Part shown: piece by piece, positions 1,111 to 23,638 of the stretch
How the letters are laid out: every line of letters starts with the position of its first letter
Position numbering within the stretch: the first letter of the stretch is position 1
Assembly (NCBI RefSeq): GCF_010725485.1
Contig: NZ_AP022598.1
Span: forward strand, 5,518,001-5,582,000
Length of the DNA stretch: 64,000 bases
Reading direction: 5' to 3'
Source: Mycolicibacterium parafortuitum
Lineage (GTDB): Bacteria > Actinomycetota > Actinomycetes > Mycobacteriales > Mycobacteriaceae
Notes under the pieces: generated by a model
What the model was told of the DNA's origin: nothing
Seen by the model: only the letters and a program-made list of their open reading frames with translations
Database searches by the model: none
Position numbers and translations under genes: made by a program

Positions 1111-1127
1111 ATCTATAGGGGTAAGGT
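1111..1127. promoter_or_regulatory. Shared operator, copy 1 (upstream of the mce operon)
   Basis: The sequence ATCTATAGGGGTAAGGT fits the imperfect 17-bp palindrome RYCTWW-N5-NWAGRT found also at 13418, 13527, 13788 and 23622. A second partial ATCTAT half lies directly upstream (1105-1110). It is the only such copy upstream of the yrbE/mce genes. The pattern is typical of a TetR-family dimer site. That it controls mce transcription is inferred from position. Confidence 0.6.
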
Positions 1128-1343
1128 TTGCGCACCCCGGTGGCCTGGATCACAGTAGCTCGGTATCCATACCCGGGACACGACAGCTCCGCTGCTCCCC
1201 GCGGCCCACCGACGGCCGAGGGTACGACCGCATGCTCGACAGATGGAGGCGCATCCCATGCTCGGAGTGGGACGATGCGACGCGTCACCGCAGCCTGGTG
1301 CCCACCCGCACGGTCCGCGCCGACACCGCCCGAGGAGACGGAT

Positions 1344-2165
1344 GTGGTGATGCCCGACAGCGCGGCACCCCCCAGCAGGCTCGACGACGGGCTCAGCCGG
1401 TTTTCGGCCACCCCCGCCGCGAAGCCGTTGCGCGCCTTCGGCGGATTCTTCGCCATGGCACTCGATGTGCTGATGCTGATCCCCCGTCGGCCGTTCGCTT
1501 GGCGCGAATTCCTGTTGCAGGCCTGGTTCGTCGCTCGCGTGTCGATGATGCCGACATTGATGCTGGCCATCCCGTTCACGGTGCTGATGGTCTTCACCTT
1601 CAACATCCTGTTGGTCGAATTCGGCGCCGCCGACTACTCCGGCACCGGGGCGGCCTACGGAACGGTCACCCAGATCGGTCCGGTGGTCACGGTGCTGGTG
1701 GTCTCCGGCGCCGGCGCCACCGCGATGTGCGCCGACCTCGGCGCGCGCACCATCCGGGAAGAGCTCGACGCGCTGAAAGTCATGGGCGTCAACCCGATTC
1801 AAGCCCTGGTGGTTCCGCGGGTGTTGGCCGCGACGGTGGTGGCCACCCTGTTGTCGTCGGTCGTGATCCTGGTCGGGCTGATCGGGAGTTTCATCTTCGC
1901 GGTCTTCATCCAACACGTCACGCCCGGATCATTCGTCGGTGGGCTCACCGTCATCACCAAGGCACCCGATGTGGTGATCTCCTTGGTCAAGTCGAGCTTG
2001 TTCGGGCTCGCCGCGGGGCTGATCGCCTGCTACGAGGGCGTTTCCGTACGTGGCGGGCCGGCCGGGGTCGGCAACGCCGTGAACGAGACCGTCGTGTACA
2101 CCTTCATGGCCCTGTTCGCGATCAACATCATCGCCACGGCGGTGGGCGTGAAGGCGACCCTGTGA
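1344..2165 (+). CDS. yrbEA: YrbEA permease subunit of the Mce importer
   Basis: This integral membrane protein of the MlaE/YrbE family forms, with YrbEB, the permease of an Mce lipid-import complex. About 273 residues carry five or so hydrophobic segments, and the conserved stretch GAGATAMCADLGARTIREELDALKVMG is the MlaE signature (GAR/EEIDAL-VMG type). The frame is open further upstream, but the start is placed at GTG 1344 because GAGGAG (1332-1337) sits six bases before it; ATG 1350 is the alternative. It is the first gene of an eight-gene mce operon, and its stop overlaps the next start. The ATPase MceG is not encoded nearby, as is usual. The mce subfamily number cannot be fixed here. Confidence 0.93.
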   Translation: MVMPDSAAPPSRLDDGLSRFSATPAAKPLRAFGGFFAMALDVLMLIPRRPFAWREFLLQAWFVARVSMMPTLMLAIPFTVLMVFTFNILLVEFGAADYSGTGAAYGTVTQIGPVVTVLVVSGAGATAMCADLGARTIREELDALKVMGVNPIQALVVPRVLAATVVATLLSSVVILVGLIGSFIFAVFIQHVTPGSFVGGLTVITKAPDVVISLVKSSLFGLAAGLIACYEGVSVRGGPAGVGNAVNETVVYTFMALFAINIIATAVGVKATL

Positions 2166-3016
2166 GCGCGGGCGTCCCGGCCGGGCTGCACCCGCGGTGG
2201 CGCCGCGCCTACGGCAAACGCATCGAGGGCCTGACCCGGATCGGCACCCAGTCCCAGTTCTACTTCACCACCATCGCCGGTATCCGCGATGCCCTGGTCC
2301 ACTACAAGGGCGAGACAGTGCGCCTGATCGCTCAGATGAGCCTGGGCACAGGGGCATTGGCGATCGTCGGCGGGACGGTCGTGATCGTCGGATTCCTGAC
2401 GCTGTCGACCGGGGCACTGGTCGCGGTGCAGGGCTACAACCAGTTCGCCAACGTGGGTGTGGAGGCGCTGACCGGCTTCGCATCGGCGTTTTTCAACGTC
2501 CGGCTCATCGCCCCTGTCATCGCGGGAATCGCGCTGGCCGCGACCATCGGTGCGGGCGCAACCGCGCAGCTCGGGGCGATGCGGATCAACGAAGAAATCG
2601 ACGCCCTCGAGGTGATGGGCGTGCGTTCGGTGGCCTACCTGGCATCGAACCGGGTGATCGCCGGTGTGATCGTCGTGATGCCGCTGTACTGCGTCGCGAT
2701 GATCACCGCGTTCCTGGCGGCCCGGTTCGGCACGACGGTGATCTACGGGCAGTCCAGCGGCGTGTACGACCACTACTTCCACACATTCCTGAACCCGGCC
2801 GACATCATCTGGTCCTTCTTTCAGGCGGTGCTGATGGCCGTCGTCATCATGCTCGTGCACACGTACTACGGCTTCAACGCCTCCGGTGGGCCCGCCGGCG
2901 TCGGCGAGGCCGTCGGCCGCGCCGTCCGCACCTCGATGATCGCGGCCGTCTTCGTCGTGCTGTTCGTCTCGCTGGCGATCTACGGCCAGTCCGGCAATTT
3001 CAACCTGTCGGGCTAG
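2162..3016 (+). CDS. yrbEB: YrbEB permease subunit of the Mce importer
   Basis: This is the second MlaE-family permease, 284 residues, pairing with YrbEA in the inner membrane. The GTG start at 2162 overlaps the yrbEA stop in a GTGA arrangement, implying translational coupling; the frame is open much further upstream through yrbEA but that is a shadow. The family signature is clear: GAGATAQLGAMRINEEIDALEVMGV around residues 133-157. The C-terminal loop contains FNASGGPAGVGEAVGRAV, close to the matching segment of YrbEA (VRGGPAGVGNAVNETV). Several hydrophobic helices follow the N-terminal amphipathic region. mceA starts four bases after the stop. Confidence 0.93.
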   Translation: MSAGVPAGLHPRWRRAYGKRIEGLTRIGTQSQFYFTTIAGIRDALVHYKGETVRLIAQMSLGTGALAIVGGTVVIVGFLTLSTGALVAVQGYNQFANVGVEALTGFASAFFNVRLIAPVIAGIALAATIGAGATAQLGAMRINEEIDALEVMGVRSVAYLASNRVIAGVIVVMPLYCVAMITAFLAARFGTTVIYGQSSGVYDHYFHTFLNPADIIWSFFQAVLMAVVIMLVHTYYGFNASGGPAGVGEAVGRAVRTSMIAAVFVVLFVSLAIYGQSGNFNLSG

Positions 3017-3019
3017 CCC

Positions 3020-4378
3020 ATGGGGATGAGGCCGCGGATCGACCGGATCCACCCGCTGTGGTGGGCTGCGGGACTGTTCACCGCGATCGCCGTGTTCGTG
3101 GCGGTGTGCTCGGCGTCGTTCGCCGGAGCGTTCCAGAACAATCTTCCGGTCACCATGACCTCCGACCGCACCGGCCTGGTGATGGAGTCCGGCGCGAAGG
3201 TGAAGATGCGCGGGGTCGAGGTGGGTCGGGTCGCGGGCATCACCGGGGGTGGGCAGAACGTCAGCCTGCGGCTCGAGCTCTACCCCGATCAGGTCGGCAT
3301 GATCCCGGAGAACGTGGAGCCGGAAATCAAGGCCACCACCGCGTTCGGCGCCAAATACGTCGACTTCGTCGTGCCCGACGAGCCCAGCCCTGCCAGCCTG
3401 ACCGCGGGTGCGGTGCTGGTGTCACGCAACGTCGGCACCGAGGTCAACACCGTGTTCGACAGCCTGGTCAGCATTCTCGACCAGATCGAGGTGCCCAAGC
3501 TCAAGGCGGTCCTCTCGGCGGTCGCCGAAGGTGTGCGCGGCAAGGGTCACCGAATGGGTGAGGCCATCACCGCAGCCGATCATGTTCTGCGCGAGGTGAA
3601 TCCGCGGATGGACATCGTCGCCGCGGACTGGCGTTCGCTGCGCGGCTTCAGCGATGCATACAGCCCCGCGGCCGCCGACATCCTCGCGGCCCTCGACGCG
3701 GCGAGCACCACCGCCACCACGATCAATGCACAGGCGAACGACCTCGACACACTGCTGCTCAACGTCACCGGGTTCGCCGACAGCGGCACCAATCTGCTGG
3801 CCGGAAACCACGACACCTTCGTCGAAGCCGTCAACGTCCTCGAGCCGACCACGGCACTGCTTCTCAAGTACAACCCCGTATACACCTGCACCATCGAGGG
3901 CGCGAAGATCTTCCTGGACAAGGCCGGCAACGAATGGTTCGGCGGCAACGGCCGCACCGTCTATCTGGATGCGGGCATCGCATTCGGCGACGACCTGTAC
4001 GAGTACCCGAAAAACCTGCCGAAGGTCGCCGCCAAGGGTGGGCCCGGCGGCAAGCCCGGCTGCGGATCGCTGCCCGACGTCGCCGAGAACTTTCCTGTCC
4101 GCCAACTGATCACCGACACCGGGTGGGGGTCTGGGCTGGACTGGCGCCCGAATCCCGGGATCGGGCAGATATGCGCTGCCGACTACTTCCCCGTCACCCG
4201 CGCGGTCCCCGAACCCCCGCACGTCGGACGCTGCATGCCCGGACCCGCTCCCGGCCCCCCTCCCCCGTACCCCGGTGGGCCTCCGTACGGCGCGCCCTGG
4301 TACGCCGCCGACGGCACGCCGCTCTACCCCGGCCTGCCCGAACCACCGCCGCCGGTACCGACGGCCCCGGCCCCGTGA
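3020..4378 (+). CDS. mceA: MceA, lipid-binding subunit of the Mce complex
   Basis: This 452-residue Mce protein has an N-terminal membrane anchor (about residues 13-35), then an MlaD domain (about 42-120) with the usual GLVMESGAKVKMRGVEVG and FGAKYVDF segments, a long helical region, and a Pro/Gly/Tyr-rich tail (from about residue 405). Mce proteins hexamerise through MlaD rings and form a periplasm-spanning lipid tunnel with their helical needle domains. MceA is the first Mce subunit here, three bases after yrbEB. The proline-rich tail (PPYPGGPPYG, EPPPPVP) may contact the cell envelope; that is inference. It belongs to the operon starting at 1344. Confidence 0.93.
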   Translation: MGMRPRIDRIHPLWWAAGLFTAIAVFVAVCSASFAGAFQNNLPVTMTSDRTGLVMESGAKVKMRGVEVGRVAGITGGGQNVSLRLELYPDQVGMIPENVEPEIKATTAFGAKYVDFVVPDEPSPASLTAGAVLVSRNVGTEVNTVFDSLVSILDQIEVPKLKAVLSAVAEGVRGKGHRMGEAITAADHVLREVNPRMDIVAADWRSLRGFSDAYSPAAADILAALDAASTTATTINAQANDLDTLLLNVTGFADSGTNLLAGNHDTFVEAVNVLEPTTALLLKYNPVYTCTIEGAKIFLDKAGNEWFGGNGRTVYLDAGIAFGDDLYEYPKNLPKVAAKGGPGGKPGCGSLPDVAENFPVRQLITDTGWGSGLDWRPNPGIGQICAADYFPVTRAVPEPPHVGRCMPGPAPGPPPPYPGGPPYGAPWYAADGTPLYPGLPEPPPPVPTAPAP

Positions 4379-4400
4379 GCACGAAGGAGGAGGTCTGCGC

Positions 4401-5432
4401 ATGAATGACAATCTCCGCCGCGCCACGATCAGCTTCGCGGTCTTCGTCATCGTCTGCCTGGTGGGTACGTTCGCACTGCTGGCGATCTTCTCGCAGTACC
4501 GGTTCGCCGGAACCCAGACATTCCGGGCCGAGTTCACCGACGTCAGCGGCCTGGGCGACGGCGACTTCGTCCGCATCGCCGGCGTGGAAGTCGGCAAGGT
4601 CAGCGGTATCTCGGTCACCGACGACTCGATCGCGCTGGTCGAGTTCACCGTGGATCCGACCGTGGTGCTGACGTCGGCCACCCGCGCGGCGGTGCGCTGG
4701 GAGAACCCCATCGGCGACCGCTACCTGGCGCTCACCGACGGACCGGGCGCAAGTCGGCACCCCCTCGACCCGGGCGGCACCATCGCGGTCTCCCACACCG
4801 AACCCGCACTGGACCTCGACACCCTGCTCGGCGGATTCCGCCCGCTGTTCCGGGCGCTGGATCCGCAGCAGGTCAACACGCTGTCGAGCCAGCTGATCGG
4901 GGCCTTCCAGGGTGAAGGGGCGACGATCAACTCGTTCCTGAGCCAGGCCGCGTCGGTTACGGGCACCCTCGCCGACCGCGACGAGTTGATCGGCGAGGTG
5001 ATCGACAACCTCACCGCGGTGATGAGCACCTTCGGTGAGGAACACACCCAGTTCGCCAAGGCGGTCGACTCGATGTCGCAACTGATCGACGGGCTGGCCG
5101 CGCGGCGCAGCGACATCGCCGACACCGTCGCGCACACCAACGCCGCGGCCGCATCGATCGCCGACATGCTCGGCCAGGCCCGGAAACCGCTGAAACACAC
5201 CGTCACCCAGACCGATCGGGTCACCTCGATCGTGGCCGCCGACCACGAATGGGTCGACGACTACCTGCGGACGATCCCGCAGTCCTACAAGACGCTCAGC
5301 CGCCTCGGGATCATGGGTGACTTCTTCACCTTCTACCTGTGTGATCTGGTCCTGAAGGTCAACGGCAAAGGCGGACAACCGGTCTACGTGAAACTCGCGG
5401 GCCAGGACTCGGGACGGTGTGAGCCGAAGTGA
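4401..5432 (+). CDS. mceB: MceB, lipid-binding subunit of the Mce complex
   Basis: This is a 343-residue Mce-family protein. ATG 4401 is preceded by AAGGAGGAGG (4383-4392), which decides the start against the longer open frame. The N-terminal anchor occupies about residues 9-33, and the MlaD domain follows (FRAEFTDVSGLGDGDFVRIAGVEVGKV). The rest is the helical needle region with many short polar heptad-like stretches. The protein lacks the long proline tail of MceA and MceC. The 3' end overlaps mceC by four bases (GTGA), so the two are probably translationally coupled. Confidence 0.93.
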   Translation: MNDNLRRATISFAVFVIVCLVGTFALLAIFSQYRFAGTQTFRAEFTDVSGLGDGDFVRIAGVEVGKVSGISVTDDSIALVEFTVDPTVVLTSATRAAVRWENPIGDRYLALTDGPGASRHPLDPGGTIAVSHTEPALDLDTLLGGFRPLFRALDPQQVNTLSSQLIGAFQGEGATINSFLSQAASVTGTLADRDELIGEVIDNLTAVMSTFGEEHTQFAKAVDSMSQLIDGLAARRSDIADTVAHTNAAAASIADMLGQARKPLKHTVTQTDRVTSIVAADHEWVDDYLRTIPQSYKTLSRLGIMGDFFTFYLCDLVLKVNGKGGQPVYVKLAGQDSGRCEPK

Positions 5433-6709
5433 AATCGTTCTCCGAGCGCAACCCGGTGGTCATCGGCGGGATCGGCGTACTCACCCTCGCCGGCACCGTG
5501 CTGGCCGCACTGCAATACGACAACCTGCCGTTCTTCGGCGGGTCACGGGGTTACGCAGCCTATTTCAGCGAGGCCGGTGGCCTTCAGGCGGGAGCCGCCG
5601 TGCAGGTGGCCGGCTACCAGGTCGGCGAGGTGTCCTCCGTGGACCTCGACGGAGACCGCGTACTGATCACCTTCGACGTCGAGGACGACGTCCGGCTCGG
5701 TGAGCAAACCGAAGCCAACATCCGCACCAAGAGCCTGCTGGGCGCCAAGGTCCTGGAGGTCACGCCGCGTGGCGACGGACATCTGAGTGCGGCGATCCCG
5801 GTCGACCGCACCAAGGCCCCGTACCAGCTGCCCGATGCCCTCGGAGACCTGACGGCCACGATCGAGGAACTCGACACCGACACCGTGTCCGGCTCACTGG
5901 CCACCCTGGCCGAGACCTTCAAGGACACCCCGCCGCAGCTGCGCGCCGCCGTCGACAGCGTGGGCCGGTTCTCCGAGACGTTGAGCACCCGCGACGCCGC
6001 GTTGCGAAACCTGTTGGCCGACGCCAGCACCGCCAGCACGGTGCTGTCCGAGCGTGCCGCCGACATCGCCGCACTGGTGTCCAACAGCAACGCGCTGCTC
6101 GCCGAACTACGCACCCGGAACGACGCGCTGGCACAGATCTCGACCAACCTGTCGGCGCTGGCGCACCAGATCCGCGGATTCATCGACGACAACCGCGCCC
6201 AGCTCAAACCCACCCTGGACAAGCTCAACGTGGTGCTGTCCATCGTCGACAAACACAAGGCCGGGCTTCAGCAGGCCATCAAATACCTGAACCAGTACGC
6301 CATGTCGCTGGGTGAGTCGGTCGCTTCCGGCCCGTTCTTCAAGGCCTACATCGCCAACCTGCTTCCCGGGCAGTTCATCCAGCCGTTCATCGACTCCGCG
6401 TTCTCCGACCTCGGGCTCGACCCGAACGTGCTGTTGCCGTCCGAACGGACCGATCCGCAGACCGGCCAGCAGGCGACCCCGCCGATGCCGGTGCCGTTCC
6501 CGCGGACCGGCCAGGGCGGTCCCCCTCGGATGACGGTCGCGGACGCCATCACCGGAAATCCCGGAGATCAACCGTGCGGTCCTGCCGGTGCCCCGGCGCC
6601 CGGTCCGGGCTGCTACCCGTACCGCGAGCCGTTGCCCGCGCCGCCTCCCGGTGGTCCTCCGCCCGGACCGCCGGCACACGCGCAACCCACCGACGGAGGG
6701 CATCGATGA
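5429..6709 (+). CDS. mceC: MceC, lipid-binding subunit of the Mce complex
   Basis: This Mce-family protein has 426 residues and a GTG start inside the mceB stop. The N terminus has one hydrophobic anchor (IGGIGVLTLAGTVLAAL, about residues 11-27), then the MlaD domain with AGGLQAGAAVQVAGYQVG and the TKSLLGAKVLEV strand. The central region is coiled-coil-like (about 150-290). The last 70 residues are rich in Pro and Gly (PPPGGPPPGPPAHAQP), a tail typical of MceC proteins. It acts in the envelope as part of the heterohexameric lipid conduit. The stop overlaps the mceD start (ATGA). Confidence 0.93.
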   Translation: MKSFSERNPVVIGGIGVLTLAGTVLAALQYDNLPFFGGSRGYAAYFSEAGGLQAGAAVQVAGYQVGEVSSVDLDGDRVLITFDVEDDVRLGEQTEANIRTKSLLGAKVLEVTPRGDGHLSAAIPVDRTKAPYQLPDALGDLTATIEELDTDTVSGSLATLAETFKDTPPQLRAAVDSVGRFSETLSTRDAALRNLLADASTASTVLSERAADIAALVSNSNALLAELRTRNDALAQISTNLSALAHQIRGFIDDNRAQLKPTLDKLNVVLSIVDKHKAGLQQAIKYLNQYAMSLGESVASGPFFKAYIANLLPGQFIQPFIDSAFSDLGLDPNVLLPSERTDPQTGQQATPPMPVPFPRTGQGGPPRMTVADAITGNPGDQPCGPAGAPAPGPGCYPYREPLPAPPPGGPPPGPPAHAQPTDGGHR

Positions 6710-7950
6710 GGTCACGAATGTGGCGGCCCGCGTTGGCCTTCTGCTTCGCACTGCTGCTGGGCGCCGGGATCGCCGTGCAGGCAGGTCTGATCGGCGCGCT
6801 GCACCGCACCTATCTGGTGGCGTACTTCGACAACAGCAACGGGCTGTTCACCGATGACGAGATCCGCATCCTCGGTGTGCGCGTGGGCCGCATCACCGAG
6901 ATCGAACCGGAGCCCGAGCGGGTCAAGATCACGTTCTGGGTGGACGACAGATACCGGGTGCCCGCCGAGGCCCGTGCCGCGATCATCGCACCGCAATTGG
7001 TCACGGCCCGGGCCATTCAGCTCACCCCCGCCTACACCGGCGGACCCGCGCTGGCCGACGGCGACGTCATCCCACTGAATCGCACGGCGGTTCCGATGGA
7101 ATGGGACGATCTGCGCGAACAACTCGCCGAACTGACCGCGGCGTTGCAGCCGATCGAGCCCGGCGGGGTGAGCACGCTGGGCGCGTTCATCGACACCGCG
7201 GCGGACAACATGCGCGGTCAGGGACCGGACATGCGGAACACGATCCTGACCATGTCGCAGGCGTTCTCGGCGCTCGGGGACCACAGCGACGACATGTTCT
7301 CGACCATCAAGAACCTGTCGGTGGTGGTCAACGCGCTCCAGGACAGCTCCGCGCTGCTCCGCGCGCTCAACGGCAACTTCGCCGCCGCGACCGCGGCCGT
7401 CAGTTCCACCCCCGGCGCCGTGGGCGACGCACTCTCCGACGTCAACGACATCGTCGGCGAGACCACGGCCTTCATCGCCGAGAACAAAGAGTCGATCGGC
7501 ACCGCCACCGCGCAGCTCGCATCGGTCACCACCGCGGTGAACGAGAGCATCGACGACGTCGAGCAGGCGTTGCACCTGTTCCCGAACACGTTGCAGAACT
7601 TCGTCAACATCTACCAGCCTACGCAACAGGGCATCACCGGTGCGCTCACGATGCAGAACTTCGCGAATCCGATCTCGTTCCTGTGCGGTGGAATCCAGGC
7701 GGCGTCGCGACTGAACAGCGAGCAGGCGGCGAAGCTGTGCGTGCAGTACCTGGCCCCGATCGTGAAGAACCGGCAGTGGAACTTCCCTCCGCTCGGCGCC
7801 AACTACGTCGTCGGCGAAAGCGCACGGCCCAACGAACTCACCTACTCCGAGGACCGGTTGCGGCCGGATTTCCGGCCGACGCCGCCCGCAGAGCAGACCG
7901 ACCCGGCGGCGGGGCTGCCGGGCATGATGATCCCGGGCGCAGGATCGTGA
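6706..7950 (+). CDS. mceD: MceD, lipid-binding subunit of the Mce complex
   Basis: This is a 414-residue Mce-family protein. ATG 6706 overlaps the mceC stop in an ATGA arrangement, so the longer open frame is rejected. Residues about 5-24 are the membrane anchor. The MlaD domain follows (FDNSNGLFTDDEIRILGVRVGRI) with the TARAIQLTP strand. The long helical domain ends in a short Pro-containing tail (PTPPAEQTDPAAG). Its last codons overlap the mceE start. The role is structural and lipid-binding within the hexameric Mce assembly, as known for the family. Confidence 0.92.
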   Translation: MRSRMWRPALAFCFALLLGAGIAVQAGLIGALHRTYLVAYFDNSNGLFTDDEIRILGVRVGRITEIEPEPERVKITFWVDDRYRVPAEARAAIIAPQLVTARAIQLTPAYTGGPALADGDVIPLNRTAVPMEWDDLREQLAELTAALQPIEPGGVSTLGAFIDTAADNMRGQGPDMRNTILTMSQAFSALGDHSDDMFSTIKNLSVVVNALQDSSALLRALNGNFAAATAAVSSTPGAVGDALSDVNDIVGETTAFIAENKESIGTATAQLASVTTAVNESIDDVEQALHLFPNTLQNFVNIYQPTQQGITGALTMQNFANPISFLCGGIQAASRLNSEQAAKLCVQYLAPIVKNRQWNFPPLGANYVVGESARPNELTYSEDRLRPDFRPTPPAEQTDPAAGLPGMMIPGAGS

Positions 7951-9101: not shown

Positions 9102-9102
9102 C

Positions 9103-10570: not shown

Positions 10571-11059
10571 ATGCCCCAACGGTTTTCCGTACTCACGGTA
10601 GGTACGGCGGTCACGCTGACGATACTGGCGGTCTCAGCGCCGGCCGCCGCCGACAACAAACGCCTCAACGACAGCGTGGTGACCAACGTCTACACACTGC
10701 AGCACCAGGCAGGCTGCACCAACGACGTCAAGAAGAACCCCCGGCTCCAACTCGCGGCCGAATGGCATGCCCGGGATGTCCTGGCCAACCGCAACCTGCA
10801 CGGCGACCTGGGCTCCGACGGATCCACCGCCCAGGACCGGGCCAGTGCCGCGGGCTATACCGGGGTCGTCGCACAGACCGTCGCGATCAACCCCGCGCTG
10901 GCCATCAACGGCCTGGAGATCCTGCGCCAGTGGTATTTCGACCCGGTCAGCTACGCCGTGATGGCCGACTGCGCCCACACCGAGATCGGGGTCTGGTCGG
11001 AGAACAGTCCGGACCGCAGCGTGGTGGTCGCGGTATACGGGCGCCCGACCCCGGCCTGA
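10571..11059 (+). CDS. Secreted CAP (SCP/PR-1-like) domain protein
   Basis: This 162-residue exported protein has a signal peptide at residues 1-27 (VGTAVTLTILAVSAPAAADN). The mature part resembles a compact CAP domain: an N-terminal helix with LNDSVVTNVYTLQHQAGC, an AAEWHARDVLANRNLHGDLGSDGST segment, and the CAHTEIGVW strand near the end. CAP proteins bind lipids or sterols in several systems. Placement 25 bp after mceF suggests an accessory role in substrate capture or presentation to the Mce complex; that is inference. The two cysteines (C48, C137) could pair. It is likely co-transcribed with the mce genes. Confidence 0.8.
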   Translation: MPQRFSVLTVGTAVTLTILAVSAPAAADNKRLNDSVVTNVYTLQHQAGCTNDVKKNPRLQLAAEWHARDVLANRNLHGDLGSDGSTAQDRASAAGYTGVVAQTVAINPALAINGLEILRQWYFDPVSYAVMADCAHTEIGVWSENSPDRSVVVAVYGRPTPA

Positions 11060-11813: not shown

Positions 11814-13768
<1,955 letters not shown>

Positions 13769-13787
13769 TCCGCCGTTGACCTCTTAT

Positions 13788-13804: not shown

Positions 13805-13905
13805 TTAGCGCCAGGGTGGCACGCGTCACACACACCGCCACGCCAACAGCCCGGGCACCGACGATCGGCCGCCCTGTACCTCGAACCATCCTTCAAAGGA
13901 GAAGC

Positions 13906-16043: not shown

Positions 16044-17225
16044 ATGACGACGTCGTTGCCGCGGCAGGACCGGATCCGCCGCGCCATCGAGTTGTTGCGC
16101 AACGACACCACCGACAGGTTCGACGAGGTCGTCGACTTCGAGGCGCGCGAGTTCACCGATCCGGTGCTCGCACAGCAGGAGCGCGACTTCATCTTCGGCC
16201 GGGTGCCGTCGATCATCGCGCACAGCAGCGAGATCGCCAAGCCGTACGACTTCATCACCGTCACGATGCCGCGCAACAACATCATCGCGGTGCGCCAGAA
16301 GGACGGCTCGGTCAAGACGTTCGTCAACCTGTGCCGGCATCGCGGCGCGCTGCTGGAGCCGCAGGAGAAGGGCCGGTGCCGGTTCTTCTCCTGCGCCTAC
16401 CACCGGTGGTCCTACGATCCCGACGGCAAGCTGCGAATGATCACGCGCGACAACACGTTCGGCGAGATCGACCGCGAGAAGTTCGGCCTCGTCGAGATTC
16501 CGTGCGAGGAGCGCCACGGCTTCATCTGGGTGGTGGACAACGCCGATGCCGAGATCGACGTCGCGTCGTGGCTCGGGCCCGAGATGGACGGGATCCTGGC
16601 CGGCTACCAGATCGACAAGCTGGTGTGCTTCCGGGCGGCGAGCTTCGAGGAACCCACCAACTGGAAGATCATGCAGGACGCGTTCCTGGACGGCTACCAC
16701 ATCCAGTACGCGCACCCGAACACCGCGGGCAAGGTGATCCACACCAACGTGATGGCGTTCGAGGACTTCGGCAGGCACTTCCGGTTCATCGCGCCGCGCA
16801 AGTCGATCGACCGCTGGCTTGAAGAGGATCCCGGTGACACCCCGCTGGATCCCTATGTCACCGAGACGCACTTCCTGCTGCCGAACAGCACGTTTCTGAG
16901 GCAGCCGGATCACTTCCAGCTGCTGACCTTCCGCCCGCATCCCACGAATCCGGAGCGATCGTTCATGGAGCAGCGCCTGATGGTGCCGCCGCTGGAGAAG
17001 TCCGTCATGACCGAGGAGCACTGGAACAAGCGCTGGGAGAAGAACTGGGAGATCCTGCTCGCGGTGCTGCACAACGAGGACTTCCCGCTGCTGCGCAACT
17101 CGCAGACAGGGATGGGCAGCGCCGACGCGGGCAAGATGCTGTTGGGCCGCAATGAAACCGGCAACCAGGTCTTCCGCCGCGAGACCAAGAAGCTGCTCGC
17201 CGAGGGGCGAGCGGCCGCGGAGTGA
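16044..17225 (+). CDS. Rieske non-haem iron oxygenase, alpha subunit
   Basis: This is a 393-residue aromatic-ring-hydroxylating-dioxygenase-type protein. The Rieske [2Fe-2S] ligands are visible as Cys97-x-His99 (NLCRHRGALL) and Cys117-x2-His120 (CAYHRWSYDPDG). The catalytic iron site follows in QDAFLDGYHIQYAH with the expected Asp and two His. No beta subunit and no reductase is adjacent, so it may be a homotrimer using external electron carriers, as in KshA-like or demethylase-type oxygenases. It could add oxygen to a ring or remove a methyl group from the imported compound. ATG 16044 lies four bases after the P450 stop. Confidence 0.93.
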   Translation: MTTSLPRQDRIRRAIELLRNDTTDRFDEVVDFEAREFTDPVLAQQERDFIFGRVPSIIAHSSEIAKPYDFITVTMPRNNIIAVRQKDGSVKTFVNLCRHRGALLEPQEKGRCRFFSCAYHRWSYDPDGKLRMITRDNTFGEIDREKFGLVEIPCEERHGFIWVVDNADAEIDVASWLGPEMDGILAGYQIDKLVCFRAASFEEPTNWKIMQDAFLDGYHIQYAHPNTAGKVIHTNVMAFEDFGRHFRFIAPRKSIDRWLEEDPGDTPLDPYVTETHFLLPNSTFLRQPDHFQLLTFRPHPTNPERSFMEQRLMVPPLEKSVMTEEHWNKRWEKNWEILLAVLHNEDFPLLRNSQTGMGSADAGKMLLGRNETGNQVFRRETKKLLAEGRAAAE

Positions 17226-17232: not shown

Positions 17233-18126
17233 GTGATCAAGTACGAGTGGCGTACCGAGCTCGACCCGCAGGAGGCCGCCGAGCTGGCAGACATGCTGGC
17301 ACGCGCGGCGACCTACGACGCCGAACCCGAATACAGCACAATCGACTTCGACAACGTGCAGGCGGCACTGGACAGCCGTGACCGGCAGGTCAAGCACCTG
17401 CTGATCTGGATGTTGCCGTACGCCACCGCGATGGCCGCCCCCGACGAGCCCGAGCGGATCGCCGCGCTGCTGCGCCTGGAGATCGGCGAAGACGGTGCCG
17501 CGAAGGCACATCTGGTGGTGGATCCCCGCTTCCGTTCGATCGGCATCACCACCCTGTTCGTCGAACAGGTCGGACTGGACACCGGTGCCCCCGACGGGTG
17601 GCTGGGTACCGGCGCACGGAGCATCACGGCGTGGGCCCGGGGCAACCATCCCGCCACGGGACGGCTGAGCAACCGGTTCCTGATCCCGCGTACCCGGCGG
17701 ATCTGGAAACTGATCCGCGCATGCACGCCTCACCTCGTCGCGGGTTCGCCGGTCCTCGAGCCCGTCGACCCGGCGTCGGTGAACCATCTGGAGTGGACTC
17801 GTTCGCTGATCGCGACCGACGGGATCTACGCGCTCCGCCTCGGCGGGTGTGTCAGCGGACTGGTCGCACTGGACTTCGCTCCACGCACCTCGGAGGAATT
17901 CGGCGCATGCGCTACGGCCACCGAGCTGCTCAGCGCCCCCGGTGCAGATCCCGCGGACCTGCGCCGCCTGCTCGACGGCGCCGCCGCGATCGCTCATGAG
18001 CGCGGCCTGACCGGCCTGATCGTGCACGTCGACTCCGGTGACAGCCGGCTGGTCAACGCCTGCCGACTGGTCGGCTTCCAACATGACCGCACCGACGTGT
18101 GCTACCAGATAGGTGATCATTCATGA
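17233..18126 (+). CDS. GNAT-like acyltransferase domain protein
   Basis: This is a 297-residue protein starting at GTG 17233, seven bases after the Rieske stop; ATGs inside the Rieske frame are rejected. It seems to contain two GNAT-like halves, as in mycothiol synthase MshD: the first with AAKAHLVVDPRFRSIGITTLFVEQV, the second with AAAIAHERGLTGLIVHVDSGDSRLVNACRLVGF, which resembles the acetyl-CoA pocket and C-terminal GF/H region. The acyl-CoA loop (Q/RxxGxG/A) is not well conserved, so catalytic activity is uncertain. Its ATGA overlap with the next gene ties it to the catabolic operon. It could acylate a pathway intermediate or act as a binding protein; that is not decided by sequence. Confidence 0.65.
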   Translation: MIKYEWRTELDPQEAAELADMLARAATYDAEPEYSTIDFDNVQAALDSRDRQVKHLLIWMLPYATAMAAPDEPERIAALLRLEIGEDGAAKAHLVVDPRFRSIGITTLFVEQVGLDTGAPDGWLGTGARSITAWARGNHPATGRLSNRFLIPRTRRIWKLIRACTPHLVAGSPVLEPVDPASVNHLEWTRSLIATDGIYALRLGGCVSGLVALDFAPRTSEEFGACATATELLSAPGADPADLRRLLDGAAAIAHERGLTGLIVHVDSGDSRLVNACRLVGFQHDRTDVCYQIGDHS

Positions 18127-18881
18127 CGACAAGCACCGACACATCGGTGCCCTCAGATTTGGCCAGTGTCGTTGAGGCCCATGGCAAAGCGGTTGCCGCT
18201 GGGGATCATCCCGCGGTACTGGCCGACTTCTTACCCGACCGGGTGGGTCAGTTGATCGGCTCGGCCGATGTGCCCGCATCGCTGAAAAGCGCTGACGTGC
18301 AGTCGATCACCGACGTCGGAGACGGGTTCTTCGACGCGGTGATCCGCTACACCAAGCCCGACGACGAGTGGTTCGAGTTGCGCAGCCGGTGGATCCGCGA
18401 CGGCGAGGGCACGTGGCGCACGTTCAGCGTGCGCAACATCCCCGCCACTCCCCCGTGGATGGATCTCACCGGCCCGTCGCCGGACGGCCTGGACGCGCCG
18501 CACTGGGACGGGCTGCGCGACGGAAAGCTGCTGCTGCAGCGCTGTTCTTCCTGCCGCACCTGGGTGTGGTCGCCGCGGCCGATCTGCCCGATTTGCCACT
18601 GTTTCGAGATGAGCTGGGAGCCGGTCGATCCCGTCGGCACCGTGTACTCCTGGACACGCACGTGGCAGCCGTTCACCAAGGAAGCCACCGGGCACCTGCC
18701 CTACGTGGTCGTGCTGGTCGAACTGCCGGGAGCCGGCGGCCGACGGGTGCTGGGAGTGCTCGCCGACGCCGACGGCGTCACGCCGCGGATCGGGAGCAGC
18801 GTGTGTGGTGAGATCCAACAACCACCCGACGACGAGCATTGGCCACTGATGCGGTGGCATCTGGAAGGACAGGCGTCGTGA
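18123..18881 (+). CDS. NTF2/SnoaL-like domain fused to DUF35 zinc-ribbon/OB-fold
   Basis: The 252-residue product shows two parts. Residues 1 to about 110 look like a small NTF2/SnoaL-type alpha+beta domain (VEAHGKAVAAGDHPAVLADFLPD; FFDAVIRYTKPDDEWFELRSRWI). Residues about 120-252 form a DUF35 unit, with a zinc ribbon (QRCSSCRTWVW and ICPICHC, two Cys-x2-Cys pairs) and an OB-fold (VDPVGTVYSWTRTWQPF). DUF35 proteins partner thiolase-like Ltp proteins in side-chain retro-aldolases, as ChsH2-DUF35 does with Ltp2. The stop overlaps the Ltp start (GTGA), so a complex of the two is likely. The fused N-terminal domain is unusual and could be the hydratase-like partner. Confidence 0.8.
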   Translation: MTTSTDTSVPSDLASVVEAHGKAVAAGDHPAVLADFLPDRVGQLIGSADVPASLKSADVQSITDVGDGFFDAVIRYTKPDDEWFELRSRWIRDGEGTWRTFSVRNIPATPPWMDLTGPSPDGLDAPHWDGLRDGKLLLQRCSSCRTWVWSPRPICPICHCFEMSWEPVDPVGTVYSWTRTWQPFTKEATGHLPYVVVLVELPGAGGRRVLGVLADADGVTPRIGSSVCGEIQQPPDDEHWPLMRWHLEGQAS

Positions 18882-20044
18882 TCGGATTCCGCGGCGCCAC
18901 AGCTGTCGTCGGTATCGGCACCACCGAGTACTACAAGCGCGGCACCAGTCCGTTGAGCTCGGCACAGCTGGTGCTGCAGGCGATCCTGCGCGCCTGCGAG
19001 GACGCCGGCGCTGACCCACGCTCGGTCGACGGTTTCGTGTCCTACGGCGACGACGCCAACGCGGGCCTCGGGGTCGCCGCGGCGCTCGGCGTACACGAGG
19101 TGCGTTGGTCCACGCAGGTCTGGGGAGGTGGCGGTGGCGGTATCGCCGCCGCGGTCAACGCCGCGGCCGCCGCGGTCTACAGCGGACAGGCCGAGTGTGT
19201 GGCCGTCTATCGAGCGCTCAACGAGGCCGACGACGGACGTCGGGCCTTCTCCAAGGGGCACCTGGGATCGCTGTACACCGCACACGGCATCCTGACCCCG
19301 CCGCAGATCTGCGCGCTGCGCACGCAGCGTCTCCTCGAGGTCGACGGCGTCCCGGCGTCCACGATGGAGGCGATCGCGCTCGCGGGATACCACCACGCTC
19401 AGAACAATCCGGACGCCGTCGCCTACGGCAAGCCGATCGACCATGACGCCTACCAGAGTTGCCGGCCCATCTCCGATCCGCTGCGTCTCTACGACTGCTC
19501 ACGGGAGAACGACGGCGCGGCGGCCATCCTGGTGGTCAGCTCCGATCGCGTCGGCGATTACAAGACCACGCCCGCGGTGATCCTCGCCGGAGCCCAAGGC
19601 GCCGCGGCAGGGTGGACCGAATCGGTCGAGAACGAGCAGAACTACACCTCGGCCGGATTCCACCCTGAGCTGGTCCAGCGCCTGTGGAACGGCGCGGGTG
19701 TCGGTCCGGACGACGTCGACGTGACCCAGGTCTACGAGAATTTCACCGGGCCCGCGGTGGCTGCAATGATCGACCATGGCCTCTGCCCGCCCGGACCCGC
19801 CGCCGGTGAGATCCTCACCGTCGAGAACCTCACGCTGCCCGGCGGCAGTCTGCCCATCAACACCTCGGGCGGCAACATCGCCGAGGGCTTCGTCCACGGC
19901 ATGGGGTTGGTGCTGGAGGCGGTGCGCCAGATCCGGGGCGACTCGGCCAATCCGGTTCCCGGCGCCGATATCTCGCTGCTCATCGGTGGCCCGATGGCGC
20001 CGATCGTCAGCTCGACGATATTCGGTTCGCCGGCGACGGTCTGA
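18878..20044 (+). CDS. Thiolase-fold lipid-transfer-type protein (Ltp), probable retro-aldolase
   Basis: This is a 388-residue SCP2-thiolase-like protein starting at GTG 18878 inside the stop of the DUF35 gene. The C-terminal thiolase signature is NTSGGNIAEGFVHGMGLV. The loop that carries the nucleophilic Cys in true thiolases reads TQVWGGGGGG here, with no Cys, and a Tyr is present in DVTQVYENFTG. Ltp2-type aldolases of steroid side-chain degradation likewise rely on Tyr rather than Cys and need a DUF35 partner. The protein is therefore more likely to cleave a beta-hydroxyacyl-CoA by retro-aldol reaction than to act as a thiolase. Confidence 0.85.
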   Translation: MIGFRGATAVVGIGTTEYYKRGTSPLSSAQLVLQAILRACEDAGADPRSVDGFVSYGDDANAGLGVAAALGVHEVRWSTQVWGGGGGGIAAAVNAAAAAVYSGQAECVAVYRALNEADDGRRAFSKGHLGSLYTAHGILTPPQICALRTQRLLEVDGVPASTMEAIALAGYHHAQNNPDAVAYGKPIDHDAYQSCRPISDPLRLYDCSRENDGAAAILVVSSDRVGDYKTTPAVILAGAQGAAAGWTESVENEQNYTSAGFHPELVQRLWNGAGVGPDDVDVTQVYENFTGPAVAAMIDHGLCPPGPAAGEILTVENLTLPGGSLPINTSGGNIAEGFVHGMGLVLEAVRQIRGDSANPVPGADISLLIGGPMAPIVSSTIFGSPATV

Positions 20045-20077: not shown

Positions 20078-21598
20078 ATGGCCGCCACCGTGGGGTCCGC
20101 GCTGACCTGGTGGGCACGCACCAAGGGTGACGAGCCGGCGGTGCGGGTCGTCGACGATGTGACGACCTATCGCGAGCTCGCCGCTTGGTCGAGCCGGCTG
20201 GCGCGCCGATTGGCCGATTGCGGCGTCGGGCCCGGAGACCGGGTCGGCGTGCTGTCGCCGAACGCGATCCAGTGGCCCGCGGCAGCGCTGGCGGTCATCA
20301 AGGCGGGGGCGGTACTGGTGCCGTTGAATTCCCGGCTCAAGCCCGCCGAGATCCGCAAGGTCGCCGACGATGCAGGCATCACCGTCGTGCTCGCCCACCC
20401 CGACTTCCGGGAGTCGGCCGAACGCGCGGCCGGGCTCGGGGCGCCTTTCGCGGTTCTGGGCTTCGCCGTCGTCGACAGTCTGCGTGCCGGCGACCCGGAC
20501 GACTTCCACATCGACCGCGCGGCCGACGAACCGATCGCGGTGATCTTCACCAGCGGTTCCACCGGCCTGTCCAAGGGCGTGATCCTGACGACGCAGACGT
20601 TGTTGAACATCGTGCTGGAGAACACGCTGATCGAAGACGGGTTCCGGCCCGGGGCCGTCTCGTTGCTGGTGTTGCCTTTGGCTTTCACGCCGGGGCTGGT
20701 GTACGGCGTCCTGATGACGACGATCCTGGGTGGTTCGCTGATCGTCGAGCCCGAGCTGAACCCGTCCCGCGCGGTCACCTTGATCGAGAAGTACGGCGTC
20801 CAGACGGTGTTCGGCGTGCCGCTGATCTTCGAAGCCATGTCTCGCGCACCGGAGTTCGACACCGCAGACCTCAGCTCGCTGCAGACGGCGATCGTCGGCG
20901 GCGCCGCGGTGCCGGTCGACCTGCTGCACCGCTGGGCGGCCAAAGGTGTTCTGCTGCGCCAGATCTATGGGATGACAGAGGCCGGCGGGGTCGCGACCGC
21001 GACGCTGAAATCCGAAGCCCTGGAACATCCGGACTCCTGTGGCAGCGGTTCGATCTTCACCGAGGTCCGGGTGATGAACGACGACGGGACACTGGCCGGC
21101 CCCGGCGAGCTGGGCGAGATCGTCGTGCGCGGCCCGCTGGTGACCCCCGGCTACTGGAATGATCCCGCCGCGACCGCCCAGGCCATCCACGACGGCTGGT
21201 TGCACAGCGGCGATCTCGGGGTCACCGACGACGAGGGCCGCGTGAAGTTCGTCGACCGCAAGAAGGACCTGATCATCTCTGGCGGGATCAACATCTCCCC
21301 GGTCGAGCTCGAGGGCGTCATCAACACCTTGGCGGGTGTCGCGGAGGTCGCGGTGATCGCGGTCCCCGACGAGCGGTTCGGCGAGACGCCGGCGGCGATC
21401 ATCACCCCGTCGGACGGCGCGTTGGACGAGGCGACGGTGGTCGCCCACTGCGAGAATCAACTCTCCGACTACAAAGTGCCGCGCTACGTGGTGCTGCGCG
21501 AATCCCCGCTGCCGCGGCTGCCCAGCGGCAAGCTCGACAAGCCGACGATCCGCGCGGAATACCGCGATCTGGCGGCGCGGTTCGACAAGGTGCGTTAG
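20078..21598 (+). CDS. Acyl-CoA synthetase (FadD type)
   Basis: This 506-residue member of the ANL superfamily activates a carboxylic acid to its CoA ester with ATP. The P-loop-like motif AVIFTSGSTGLSKGVIL is at about residues 150-166, YGMTEAGG near 298, the SGDLG ATP-contact region near 380, and the hinge/C-domain motif KKDLIISGGINISPVE near 396. The C-terminal Lys is in PSGKLDKPTIR. ATG 20078 follows GAAGGAGG. It is the last plus-strand gene of the catabolic block; its stop overlaps the end of the opposing MaoC gene. It would load the acid from the ALDH step onto CoA. Confidence 0.92.
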   Translation: MAATVGSALTWWARTKGDEPAVRVVDDVTTYRELAAWSSRLARRLADCGVGPGDRVGVLSPNAIQWPAAALAVIKAGAVLVPLNSRLKPAEIRKVADDAGITVVLAHPDFRESAERAAGLGAPFAVLGFAVVDSLRAGDPDDFHIDRAADEPIAVIFTSGSTGLSKGVILTTQTLLNIVLENTLIEDGFRPGAVSLLVLPLAFTPGLVYGVLMTTILGGSLIVEPELNPSRAVTLIEKYGVQTVFGVPLIFEAMSRAPEFDTADLSSLQTAIVGGAAVPVDLLHRWAAKGVLLRQIYGMTEAGGVATATLKSEALEHPDSCGSGSIFTEVRVMNDDGTLAGPGELGEIVVRGPLVTPGYWNDPAATAQAIHDGWLHSGDLGVTDDEGRVKFVDRKKDLIISGGINISPVELEGVINTLAGVAEVAVIAVPDERFGETPAAIITPSDGALDEATVVAHCENQLSDYKVPRYVVLRESPLPRLPSGKLDKPTIRAEYRDLAARFDKVR

Positions 21599-22080
21599 CC
21601 GTTTCGCCGTGAGACCACGATGACGCCGTCGAAACTCAGGACGACGGCGTCGTTCTGGTCGACCAGGGTGGACCGCTGCAGCAGATCCGCACGGCGCTCG
21701 CGCATCGTGATACCGGTGACCTCGACCCGTCCCGTCAGCGTCGAGCCCGGATAGACCGGCGCGGGCAGCCGCATCCGGTCCACACCCTTGCCCGCCACCA
21801 GCGCCAACCGCGGGATGAACGCGCGCGAGGCGAGGCTGGAGAACAGCGCCATCGTGTGCATGCCACTGGCGATCACCTGACCGAACGGTGAATCCGTGGC
21901 GTCGAGGTGAAGTGGCAGCGGGTCATACTTGGCGGCGAACTCGGTGATCTCGTCGAGTTCGACGCGCACGCTGCCGACATCCATCCAGTCACCGACCGCG
22001 AGATCCTCGGCGTACCAGGGGCTCTGGTCGGCGATCTCGTCCAGATTACGGCCCGCGCGGGTCGCTTCGTCCACGTTCAC
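21595..22080 (-). CDS. MaoC-like hot-dog hydratase/dehydratase
   Basis: This is a 161-residue MaoC-family protein starting at GTG 22080. The MaoC N-terminal part is visible (WYAEDLAVGDWMDVGSVRV), followed by ITEFAAKYDPLPLHLD and the catalytic hydratase-2-like segment (FGQVIASGMHTMALF) with the conserved Asp and His. Such enzymes hydrate enoyl-CoA to 3-hydroxyacyl-CoA. That would supply a hydroxyacyl-CoA to the Ltp/DUF35 aldolase. It is three bases downstream of the second ALDH gene on the same strand, and converges on fadD with a four-base overlap. Confidence 0.88.
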   Translation of the reverse strand: MNVDEATRAGRNLDEIADQSPWYAEDLAVGDWMDVGSVRVELDEITEFAAKYDPLPLHLDATDSPFGQVIASGMHTMALFSSLASRAFIPRLALVAGKGVDRMRLPAPVYPGSTLTGRVEVTGITMRERRADLLQRSTLVDQNDAVVLSFDGVIVVSRRNG

Positions 22081-22083
22081 CGA

Positions 22084-23532
22084 CTACTCCGGAACCGGGT
22101 CGGCCCGGTAGACGGACTTGGTGATCAGGTACGCGTCGAGGCCCTCGGGGCCGAGTTCACGACCGAGACCGCTGGATTTCACGCCGCCGAACGGCGATTG
22201 GATGTCGAGCTGATAGTGGTTCACGCCCACGGATCCGGTGTGCATCGCGCGGGCGATCTCGGTGGCCCGCGCCGGATCCTGGGACCAGACGGTGCCGGCC
22301 AGCCCGAACTCCGTGTCGTTGGCCAACCGCACCGCGTCGGCCTCGTCCTCGTAGGGGGTGATGGTGATGACCGGGCCGAAGATCTCTTCCTGTGCCAACC
22401 GGTCGTTGTTGTCGACGTCGGCGAACACCGTCGGCGCGACGAACCACCCGCGGGTCAGGTTCGCGGGCACCGATCCACCGGCGACGAGGCGGGCACCGGA
22501 GTCCCTGCCGATCTGGATGTAGTCGAGCACCCGCTCGCGCTGACGCTCGCTGACCAGCGGGCCGATCTCGGTCTTGTCGTCGAGCGGGTCCCCGACCGTC
22601 AGATTGTCGGCCAATTCGCCGATTGCCGAGACGAATTCGGCGTACCGGGACGTCGGCACCAGGATCCGGGAGCTGAGGTGACAGGTCTGCCCGTTGTTGA
22701 CGAAGGACGCCGTGCGCAGACCCTCGATGGTCGCGCCGAGGTCGGCATCGTCGAGGATCACCGCAGCGCTCTTACCGCCGAGCTCCAGGGTGACCGGACG
22801 GATGAGCCGGCCACACTCGGCGCCGATCACCCGGCCGGCGTTGGTCGACCCGGTGAACGCGACCTTGTCGACGCCCGGGTGCGTGACCAGGTGTGCGCCC
22901 GCGGCGGCGTCACCGGGAACCACGTTGAGCACACCAGCGGGCAGACCGGCCTCGGCGGCCGCGTCGGCGAAAACCAGCGCGTCCAGCGCGGTTTCCGGGG
23001 ATGCCTTGAGCACCACCGAACATCCCGCAGCCAGGGCCGGCGCGATCTTCATCACGGCCAGGGCCTGCGGATAGTTCCACGGAGTGATCGCGGCGACGAC
23101 ACCGATCGGTTCGCGTCGCACGATGGTGTGACCGATCAGGGCGGGACGCACCTCTTCGGCGTGGAACCCCTTGATCAGTTTGGCGTAGTAGTTGACGAGC
23201 ACCGCCGGAAACGCACCGTTCACGGCGCGCGACAGGCTGATCGGCATGCCGTTCTCGCGGCTCACCAGCGTCGCGGTGTCCTGTCCGCGGGCCCGCAGCG
23301 CGGCGGCGAACCGCTTCAGCCCGTCGGCCCGTTCGTCCACCGAGGCGGTGCGCCACTGCGCCGCACCCTCGCCCCGGGCGGACGCCACGGCGTCGTCGAT
23401 GTCGGCGATCGTCGCACTGGGTCCGTCGGCGAGCACCTCGCCCGTCGCGGCCTCGATCACCGGGACCGTCTGCCCGGCGTCGCGGAACGTCCCACCGATG
23501 AACAGCCGGCCGGTGTCGATGATCTGCGTCAT
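22084..23532 (-). CDS. Aldehyde dehydrogenase family protein
   Basis: This is a 482-residue ALDH and the second in this block. The motifs include ITPWNYPQALAVMKIAPALAAGC, FTGSTNAGRVIG, the general-base Glu in LELGGKSA, the catalytic Cys in NNGQTCHLSSR, and EEIFGPVITI. The C-terminal GGVKSSGLGRELGPEG motif is complete. It differs markedly in length and sequence from the ALDH at 11814, so the two probably act on different aldehydes or at different steps. ATG 23532 lies 90 bp from operator copy 5 (23622). It forms a two-gene operon with the MaoC gene. Confidence 0.92.
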   Translation of the reverse strand: MTQIIDTGRLFIGGTFRDAGQTVPVIEAATGEVLADGPSATIADIDDAVASARGEGAAQWRTASVDERADGLKRFAAALRARGQDTATLVSRENGMPISLSRAVNGAFPAVLVNYYAKLIKGFHAEEVRPALIGHTIVRREPIGVVAAITPWNYPQALAVMKIAPALAAGCSVVLKASPETALDALVFADAAAEAGLPAGVLNVVPGDAAAGAHLVTHPGVDKVAFTGSTNAGRVIGAECGRLIRPVTLELGGKSAAVILDDADLGATIEGLRTASFVNNGQTCHLSSRILVPTSRYAEFVSAIGELADNLTVGDPLDDKTEIGPLVSERQRERVLDYIQIGRDSGARLVAGGSVPANLTRGWFVAPTVFADVDNNDRLAQEEIFGPVITITPYEDEADAVRLANDTEFGLAGTVWSQDPARATEIARAMHTGSVGVNHYQLDIQSPFGGVKSSGLGRELGPEGLDAYLITKSVYRADPVPE

Positions 23533-23621
23533 AGCTTGTCACCCTTCGCGATCGGTGCCGAGGTGCGCACGGCTACCAGTAGACCAGACGCCGTCACCAG
23601 CCGACGGCCCCGCCCACGATT

Positions 23622-23638
23622 ACCTTATCTCGTTAGGT
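23622..23638. promoter_or_regulatory. Shared operator, copy 5 (second ALDH / small gene)
   Basis: ACCTTATCTCGTTAGGT matches RYCTWW-N5-NWAGRT with perfect ACCT/AGGT outer halves. It is in the 214-bp divergent gap between the ALDH-MaoC operon and the small gene at 23747, and would bring one or both under the control seen at copies 1-4. It is the rightmost copy noticed. Confidence 0.6.

Follow-up and report, generated by a model that had tools for sequence, protein, structure and literature searches.

Among the described systems closest to the locus studied here, the KstR regulon (Rv3574/MSMEG_6042) brings many lipid-catabolic genes under one TetR-type repressor and one short palindrome, and mce4 is among its targets. 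In this study, we analyzed a 64,000-nucleotide stretch of the Mycolicibacterium parafortuitum chromosome (hereafter the window; NZ_AP022598.1, positions 5,518,001–5,582,000 of a single-contig genome of 6.04 Mb). Five copies of another palindrome stand there before an mce importer operon and a neighbouring block of cytochrome P450 and Rieske oxygenase genes, and the gene of a TetR-type protein, named TetR1, lies between the two. As judged from sequence comparison, the five sites are probably operators of this one local repressor, which would control both the importer and the catabolic genes. To our knowledge, the substrates of most mce importers are not known; a fixed operator that ties an mce operon to a set of enzymes would offer a handle on the substrate, with the release of TetR1 as a screen.

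The part of PMC1995591 that deals with the KstR box describes it as partly overlapping the -10 region, as the operator here does, and gives its sequence as TnnAACnnGTTnnA, whereas the box of the present locus is TAAAYCTAW-N5-WTAGRTTTA. TetR1 is not a member of the KstR type: its palindrome differs and it has no match to the KstR model at E 0.001. A further difference from KstR is that four of the five places of the strict motif in the genome are confined to one cluster. Mce3R resembles the present system in that a TetR-like protein controls lipid genes together with an mce operon, but it is described in PMC11667970 as a double TetR protein with two asymmetric 25-bp sites, whereas TetR1 is a single TetR protein of 217 amino acids with palindromic sites and thus does not belong to the Mce3R type. 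The Shy/Sal/Sad bile-acid system, as presented in PMC8399759, has in common with our locus a MaoC protein, a DUF35 protein, a thiolase-fold aldolase and an aldehyde dehydrogenase; the cluster described here differs from it in being actinobacterial and in having DUF35 and MaoC as separate genes.

Five Palindromes in the Window

The original prediction listed five 17-bp palindromes in the window. All of them were recovered (Table 1), and shuffled windows contained 0.05 such sites on average and one at most. The pattern RYCTWW-N6-WAGRT gives nine strand-wise matches in the 64 kb, which correspond to the same five places. At four sites both strands match the pattern, whereas at 13527, where G occupies one of the W positions, a single strand does; the score of this site in the cross-genus matrix described below (27.8 bits) is similar to those of the other four. 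Each site lies in a gap before genes, namely the mce operon, ALDH1 and probably TetR1, the ferredoxin gene, the SDR–P450–Rieske operon, and the ALDH2/DUF6319 pair.

The strict form RYCTWW-N5-WWAGRT occurs at five forward places in the whole genome, four of them in the window, as compared with two for the reversed control. The site at 13527 differs from this form by one base and so falls outside the count. The fifth place, 1355498, is a one-strand match before an open reading frame of 311 amino acids, which was taken for a methyltransferase by eye. Random genome-wide frequency of the motif had been named at the outset as a sign against the regulon; on this point the strict form stands above its control, but the loose forms are not enriched over theirs. 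The extended 23-bp pattern was found at 22 places with up to three mismatches (17 in the control), and with up to two mismatches five of the eight genome places were in the cluster, the weak site at 705 included. No convincing distant regulon member emerged from the whole-genome pattern and mismatch searches.

The Operator in Other Actinobacteria

A named search based on the P450 yielded 74 loci with 1,428 kb in total. The intergenic DNA of 61 of these was scanned blindly for palindromes (256 half-sites at 17 spacings, no motif input), with L116, four duplicate or same-genome loci, and eight non-actinobacterial loci set apart. The seven top dyads included CTAA-N5-TTAG, TAAA-N15-TTTA, CCTA-N7-TAGG, and ACCT-N9-AGGT (55 seen against 3.0 expected under a simple expectation that favours AT-rich words), all of which belong to one 23-bp palindrome; the remaining three were TAAT-N8-ATTA, TAAA-N9-TTTA, and CTAA-N11-TTAG. 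The full operator is about 23 bp long and reads TAAAYCTAW-N5-WTAGRTTTA.

A matrix built from 101 non-identical sites outside the window placed the five window sites on top (25.9–31.2 bits), followed by the site at 705 (10.6 bits) and then by a score of 2.1 bits. The same five sites were on top (24.3–29.0 bits) when the matrix was built from 72 non-mycobacterial sites only (the cross-genus matrix), with the next scores being 9.5 and 2.4 bits. Meanwhile, none of 40 column-permuted palindromic matrices gave more than two hits in the window. At a threshold of 12 bits, 218 sites were found in the 74 loci, near-duplicate loci included (204 sites are non-identical with full flanks), as compared with one in a first-order Markov control. 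At least one such site is present in 64 of the 74 loci, that is, in 64 of the 66 actinobacterial loci, which represent 12 genera. Sites are lacking from two actinobacterial loci, L130 (Rhodococcus aetherivorans) and L148 (Nocardia bovistercoris), as well as from the eight non-actinobacterial ones, in which the P450 identity is 29–42%. In the 61 loci with gene calls, where 79.5% of the DNA is coding, 198 of the 199 sites are intergenic. The targets that recur across loci are SDR, Rieske, ALDH, FadD, DUF35–Ltp, and ferredoxin genes.

Of 200 other genomes sampled from the family, 16 have a P450 ortholog of at least 65% identity, and none of the 14 same-genus genomes in this sample is among them, which indicates that the cluster is sporadic. 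Other Mycolicibacterium carrying the cluster were found by the named search, and the nearest named relatives of the P450 are those of M. parafortuitum (95% identity) and M. aurum (91%). Two genomes, G123 (L041, L053, and L054) and G186 (L055), each contain multiple paralogs of the P450 and the Rieske protein as well as more than one copy of TetR1, which suggests pathway expansion.

TetR1 as the Candidate Repressor

TetR1 matches TetR_N (37.4 bits) and TetR_C_1 (28.8 bits), both above the cut-off, and is therefore a member of the TetR family. The closest solved structures are the class D tetracycline repressors (E 1e-15). The recognition stretch is PSLYHHF in TetR1 and PTLYWHV in the tetracycline repressor, and the half-site CTAT lies at -6 to -3 from the operator centre, which we take to be the same spacing as in tetO. 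As compared with tetO, the operator here is longer, with outer TAAA/TTTA, and TetR1 falls short of the TetR equivalog NF010319 (84.5 bits against a cut-off of 265).

Orthologs of TetR1 of at least 59% identity are present in 17 of the 200 genomes, which are all 16 P450-bearing genomes and G108. This co-occurrence with the P450 has a Fisher p of 1e-22, a value that is overstated since the genomes are related. As a separate observation, G108 (L107) has TetR1, Rieske, Ltp, and ALDH2 genes and matching palindromes, and it shows no P450 match at E 1e-60. Among 61 full-span TetR1 homologs, the recognition stretch is conserved at 0.85 and the ligand domain at 0.65, a difference that is usual in the TetR family and hence lends weak support. 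In Amycolatopsis and Pseudonocardia, the operator lies 53–59 bp from a TetR1 homolog of 42–49% identity.

ALDH1 and TetR1 run in the same direction on the minus strand, with 86 bp between the ALDH1 stop (11814) and the TetR1 start (11727). Because of this arrangement, TetR1 probably belongs to the ALDH1 operon, and the site at 13418 would control both genes. The original prediction of a different palindrome at the TetR1 promoter was not supported, as the search for exact inverted repeats in 11700–11840 gave only two 6-nt pairs. The relatives L118, L119, and L121 do carry a site at the start of TetR1 (16.9–19.0 bits).

Promoter Architecture and CRP/GlxR-Like Boxes

Ahead of the SDR gene, the window and 13 relatives can hardly be aligned except at three elements, namely TTGAC, the operator with CGTAAGGTTT at its end, and GTG-N8-CAC. 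TTGAC and CGTAAGGTTT are among the blocks that are invariant in all 14 promoters. At the SDR and mce promoters, the -10 box lies within the right half-site of the operator. We read TTGACC/TAAGGT as promoters on the strength of their conservation, since a generic sigma-70 scan missed both: it found no promoter in 1000–1400 and only the one at 13491 in 11000–14000. Promoter-like TTGACn-N16-18-TAnnnT sequences were found near 71 of the 218 sites, as compared with 35 of 4,360 random positions, coding positions included.

GTG-N8-CAC is the core of CRP/GlxR sites, for which the part of PMC4254451 on site sequences gives the consensus TGTGANNTANNTCACA. Two boxes of this kind follow window operators (Table 1), each with two mismatches to TGTGA-N6-TCACA, and are putative sites by their sequence; the remaining three window operators have none. 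Of 204 operator sites, 51 have GTG-N8-CAC no more than 62 bp away, as compared with 152 of 2,440 intergenic control positions, and 34 of 56 boxes lie at +24.5 to +31.5 from the operator; many of the box-bearing promoters are orthologous and a few boxes overlap, so that the independent events are fewer than these counts. The blind scan also returned GTGA-N6-TCAC (32 seen, 5.3 expected). Several Gordonia loci have perfect TGTGA-N6-TCACA boxes. GlxR mostly activates, as far as PMC4254451 treats its action; a box downstream of the -10 sequence would rather fit repression.

Proposed Regulation and Alternatives

From these comparisons we infer the following scheme of binding, repression, effector, and order of reactions. 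A TetR1 dimer would bind its operator over the -10 box or start region and block the mce, ALDH1–TetR1, ferredoxin, SDR–P450–Rieske–DUF35–Ltp–FadD, and ALDH2/DUF6319 units until a pathway molecule frees it from DNA. The imported substrate would be oxidized by P450/ferredoxin, Rieske, SDR, and ALDH proteins, activated by FadD, and then trimmed to an aldehyde through hydration and retro-aldol cleavage; an ALDH would oxidize this aldehyde. The CRP/GlxR-like box behind two promoters may add a global carbon signal. The comparative evidence strongly supports the proposal that a single TetR-type regulator governs uptake and degradation as KstR does, with another box. In our view, this is a real TetR regulon, similar in kind to those already described, and TetR1 is its most probable repressor; in the open-licence literature searched, no title or abstract opening concerned this cluster or operator.

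Several results weigh against this reading. Loose forms of the motif are not enriched in the genome (57 forward places against 71 in the reversed control), and neither is ACCTWW-N5-WWAGGT with up to two mismatches (167 against 238), so that only the full site is informative. The 40 permuted matrices gave a mean of 6.6 hits over the 74 loci as compared with 225 for the real one, and the largest of them reached 53. The pattern used for training the matrices resembles the motif of the original prediction, for which reason the palindrome scan, made with no motif input, is the cleaner of the tests. Within about 1.5 kb, a site of at least 12 bits is present at only 5 of 28 short TetR1 loci, so that neither adjacency to a site nor autoregulation is a general feature. 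Of the 66 actinobacterial loci, 37 (eight genera) have a TetR1 homolog within the fetched stretch, as compared with 64 that have sites. A third, unlinked regulator could also be the binder. Finally, the cluster mce operons of Gordonia, Nocardia, and Rhodococcus are of another class and few have a nearby site, so that the evidence for the importer is thin there.

The nature of the substrate is the weakest step of the scheme. Two adjacent genes match 6ok1_A and 6ok1_B, the two members of the Ltp2–ChsH2(DUF35) pair, and encode a putative retro-aldolase. Because of this enzyme set, an isoprenoid or steroid-like side chain is suggested, and our guess by analogy is a terpenoid or steroid-like acid. 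In the aldolytic removal of the bile-acid side chain, as outlined in PMC8399759, the aldehyde is oxidized by Sad. The regulon may belong to steroid or sterol catabolism as a side branch, in which the P450, Rieske, DUF35/Ltp, and mce proteins would act on a steroid ring or its side chain, much like the KstR and cholate systems; we consider this rather unlikely. The Ltp and DUF35 proteins do resemble the Ltp2–ChsH2(DUF35) steroid aldolase, CYP125MRCA is the nearest solved P450, and all six Mce proteins match a model named after the Mce4 cholesterol porter. However, the P450 is almost as near to the terpene P450s 101D1 and P450cin, and the block proteins scanned include no member of a KstD-like or meta-cleavage family, although genes of this sort could be located outside the block. 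The Mce4_CUP1 model applies to Mce proteins in general, which weakens the case further.

It is improbable that the operators are real but bound by another protein, either unlinked or the second cluster-linked TetR protein, TetR-B (L123:11203–11820, minus strand, and relatives), with TetR1 serving another site. TetR-B was the one further conserved regulator recognized as linked to the cluster. Family clustering places TetR-B in 38 groups and TetR1 in 36. All 17 of the sampled genomes with TetR1 also have TetR-B (an 18th match, in G136, is 39% identical), 44 of the 74 named loci have a TetR-B match at E 1e-15, some matches being down to 33% identity, and most TetR1 genes have no adjoining site. 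However, no match to TetR-B was found at E 1e-35 in the window genome, which still has the operators, and TetR-B is likewise missing from the fetched stretches (not whole genomes) of nine close Mycolicibacterium loci (L116–L119, L121, L122, L125, L147, and L188), which keep both TetR1 and the operators. As TetR-B has been lost naturally while the operators and TetR1 stay, TetR1 is favoured. We therefore set aside TetR-B, absent from the window genome, and also TetR2 (24148), which was matched in L116 only among the 74 loci. TetR3 (26945) was matched in none of the 74 loci, a result of little weight since its syntenic place is mostly beyond the 10-kb flank. The profile scans covered some of the conserved cluster-linked families, and another regulator may have been overlooked. 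The local TetR of the original prediction is thus favoured by its co-occurrence with the P450 and by the operators kept where TetR-B is absent; the caution about the identity of the binder has narrowed with the absence of this rival from the genome.

It is scarcely credible that the repeats are merely AT-rich promoter-like sequence kept for -35/-10 boxes. The site does overlap the -10 box, promoter-like sequences adjoin 71 of the 218 sites, and AT-rich dyads score high in the blind scan, yet the half-sites and the outer flanks are both symmetric, the permuted palindromic matrices fall short of the real one, and eight of the ten site-less loci are non-actinobacterial.

The mce Importer in Relatives

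In the window, MlaE occurs twice and is followed by six proteins with MlaD and Mce4_CUP1, which is the composition of an MCE transporter operon. We examined 30 mce loci from 12 Mycolicibacterium genomes, a part of a longer match list, and found a site of at least 12 bits in eight of them, mostly those nearest to the window mce. Six of the eight (L190–L193, L195, and L196) are among the seven loci with a YrbE_A at least 87% identical to that of the window; L194, the seventh of these loci, lacks a site. L197 (81%, 20.5 bits) and L208 (70%, 13.8 bits) complete the eight. No site was found at four mce loci of 81–82% YrbE_A identity (L202–L205) or at the closest mce paralog in the same genome (L096, YrbE 80–81%).

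In Gordonia, Nocardia, and Rhodococcus, the mce genes beside the cluster share 22–41% identity with the window mce. In the YrbE_A tree, these and one from Mycolicibacterium (L178) are separated from the window class by a deep, fully supported branch; the bootstrap did not settle, L177 has a long branch, and L212, labelled other mce, may belong to the L120 cluster. Within 1.2 kb upstream of the other-class mce, sites were found in L097 (11.4 bits), L132 (14.4 bits), L133 (19.6 bits), and the duplicates L038 and L040, and none in L153, L178, L051, L039, L109, L042, and L177. In L122, L125, L147, and L188, the mce genes follow TetR1 on the same strand and have no site of their own. The cluster-linked mce thus fall into deeply different classes by genus (1344–10545 in the window as compared with L097, L132, L133, L153, and L178), which looks like an exchange of importers inside a single regulon. 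By this cross-genus comparison, the switch of a regulon may be retained when the class of its importer changes. We tentatively propose a second KstR-like design, in which the TetR1/23-bp module would stay fixed and define the breakdown pathway of a terpenoid-like compound that has so far escaped recognition, with the mce class swapped and key promoters gated by substrate and carbon state through the phased CRP/GlxR box.

Gene Content of the Block

Genes were called from codon-position GC content, and their starts are approximate. The features of the window are collected in Table 1.

Table 1. Operators, promoter elements, and genes of the window
Feature	Coordinates	Strand	Basis or remark
Weak sixth operator-like site	705..721		10.6 bits; 9.5 bits with the cross-genus matrix
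Operator before mce operon	1111..1127		Pattern and both matrices; similar sites before related mce
Operator before ALDH1, probably also TetR1	13418..13434		Pattern and both matrices
Operator before ferredoxin	13527..13543		Pattern and both matrices
Operator before SDR–P450–Rieske operon	13788..13804		Pattern, matrices, 14-sequence alignment
Operator between ALDH2 and DUF6319 gene (divergent pair)	23622..23638		Pattern and both matrices
mce promoter: TTGACC (1098–1103), 18 nt, TAAGGT (1122–1127, within operator)	1098..1127	+	Read from sequence
Promoter-like TGGACC-N17-TATAGT before ferredoxin	13491..13519	+	Generic scan, 0.3 expected by chance
SDR promoter: TTGACC (13776–13781), 17 nt, TAAGGT (13799–13804)	13776..13804	+	Layout common to 14/14 aligned sequences
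CRP/GlxR-like box GTG-N8-CAC	1139..1154		+27.5 from operator centre
CRP/GlxR-like box	13815..13830		+26.5 from operator centre
Small cysteine-containing exported protein, possible sixth target	384..656	-	Signal-peptide-like start, by eye
Two YrbE/MlaE permeases	1344..3016	+	Pfam MlaE
Six MCE proteins	3020..10545	+	MlaD and Mce4_CUP1 in all six, above cut-off
Small CAP-domain protein	10571..11059	+	Pfam CAP
TetR1, candidate repressor	11074..11727	-	TetR_N and TetR_C_1
ALDH1, aldehyde dehydrogenase	11814..13382	-	Pfam Aldedh
Single-cluster ferredoxin	13574..13768	+	Pfam Fer4_15
SDR dehydrogenase	13906..14772	+	Pfam adh_short; mycofactocin-coupled SDR model below cut-off
Cytochrome P450	14792..16039	+	Pfam p450; near solved CYP125MRCA, then 101D1-type P450 and P450cin
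Rieske oxygenase alpha subunit	16044..17225	+	Domain scan
MshD-like protein	17233..18126	+	No Pfam hit; weak TIGR03448 match below cut-off
ChsH2-type DUF35/OB-fold protein	18123..18881	+	zf-ChsH2, OB_ChsH2_C; nearest PDB 9myr_B, 6ok1_B
Ltp2-like thiolase-fold protein, retro-aldolase type	18839..20044	+	Best PDB 6ok1_A, E 1.3e-53
Acyl-CoA ligase (FadD)	20078..21598	+	Pfam AMP-binding
MaoC hydratase	21595..22080	-	Domain scan
ALDH2, aldehyde dehydrogenase	22084..23532	-	Domain scan
DUF6319 protein	23747..24142	+	Domain scan

The MshD-like gene is kept beside the Rieske gene in many relatives. Family III CoA-transferases occur in the clusters of relatives (L120:6332–8632 and L185:19115–21175, both on the minus strand, with two CoA_transf_3 stretches each); the family of the L185 protein comprises 26 groups by family clustering, and none was seen in the window block. 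Reductases also recur in relatives, one type (L106:7459–8382, minus strand; 21 groups) having Fer2/NAD_binding_1 and the other (L051:11979–13613, minus strand; 18 groups) being a ferredoxin-fused Pyr_redox_2 protein. These could be partners of the Rieske and P450 proteins; the window block shows no such reductase.

The weak site at 705 has a counterpart in the near relatives L190 (10.6 bits) and L191 (13.6 bits). Among the loci compared, the small exported-protein gene next to it was matched, beyond the window copy (L002), in these two relatives only.

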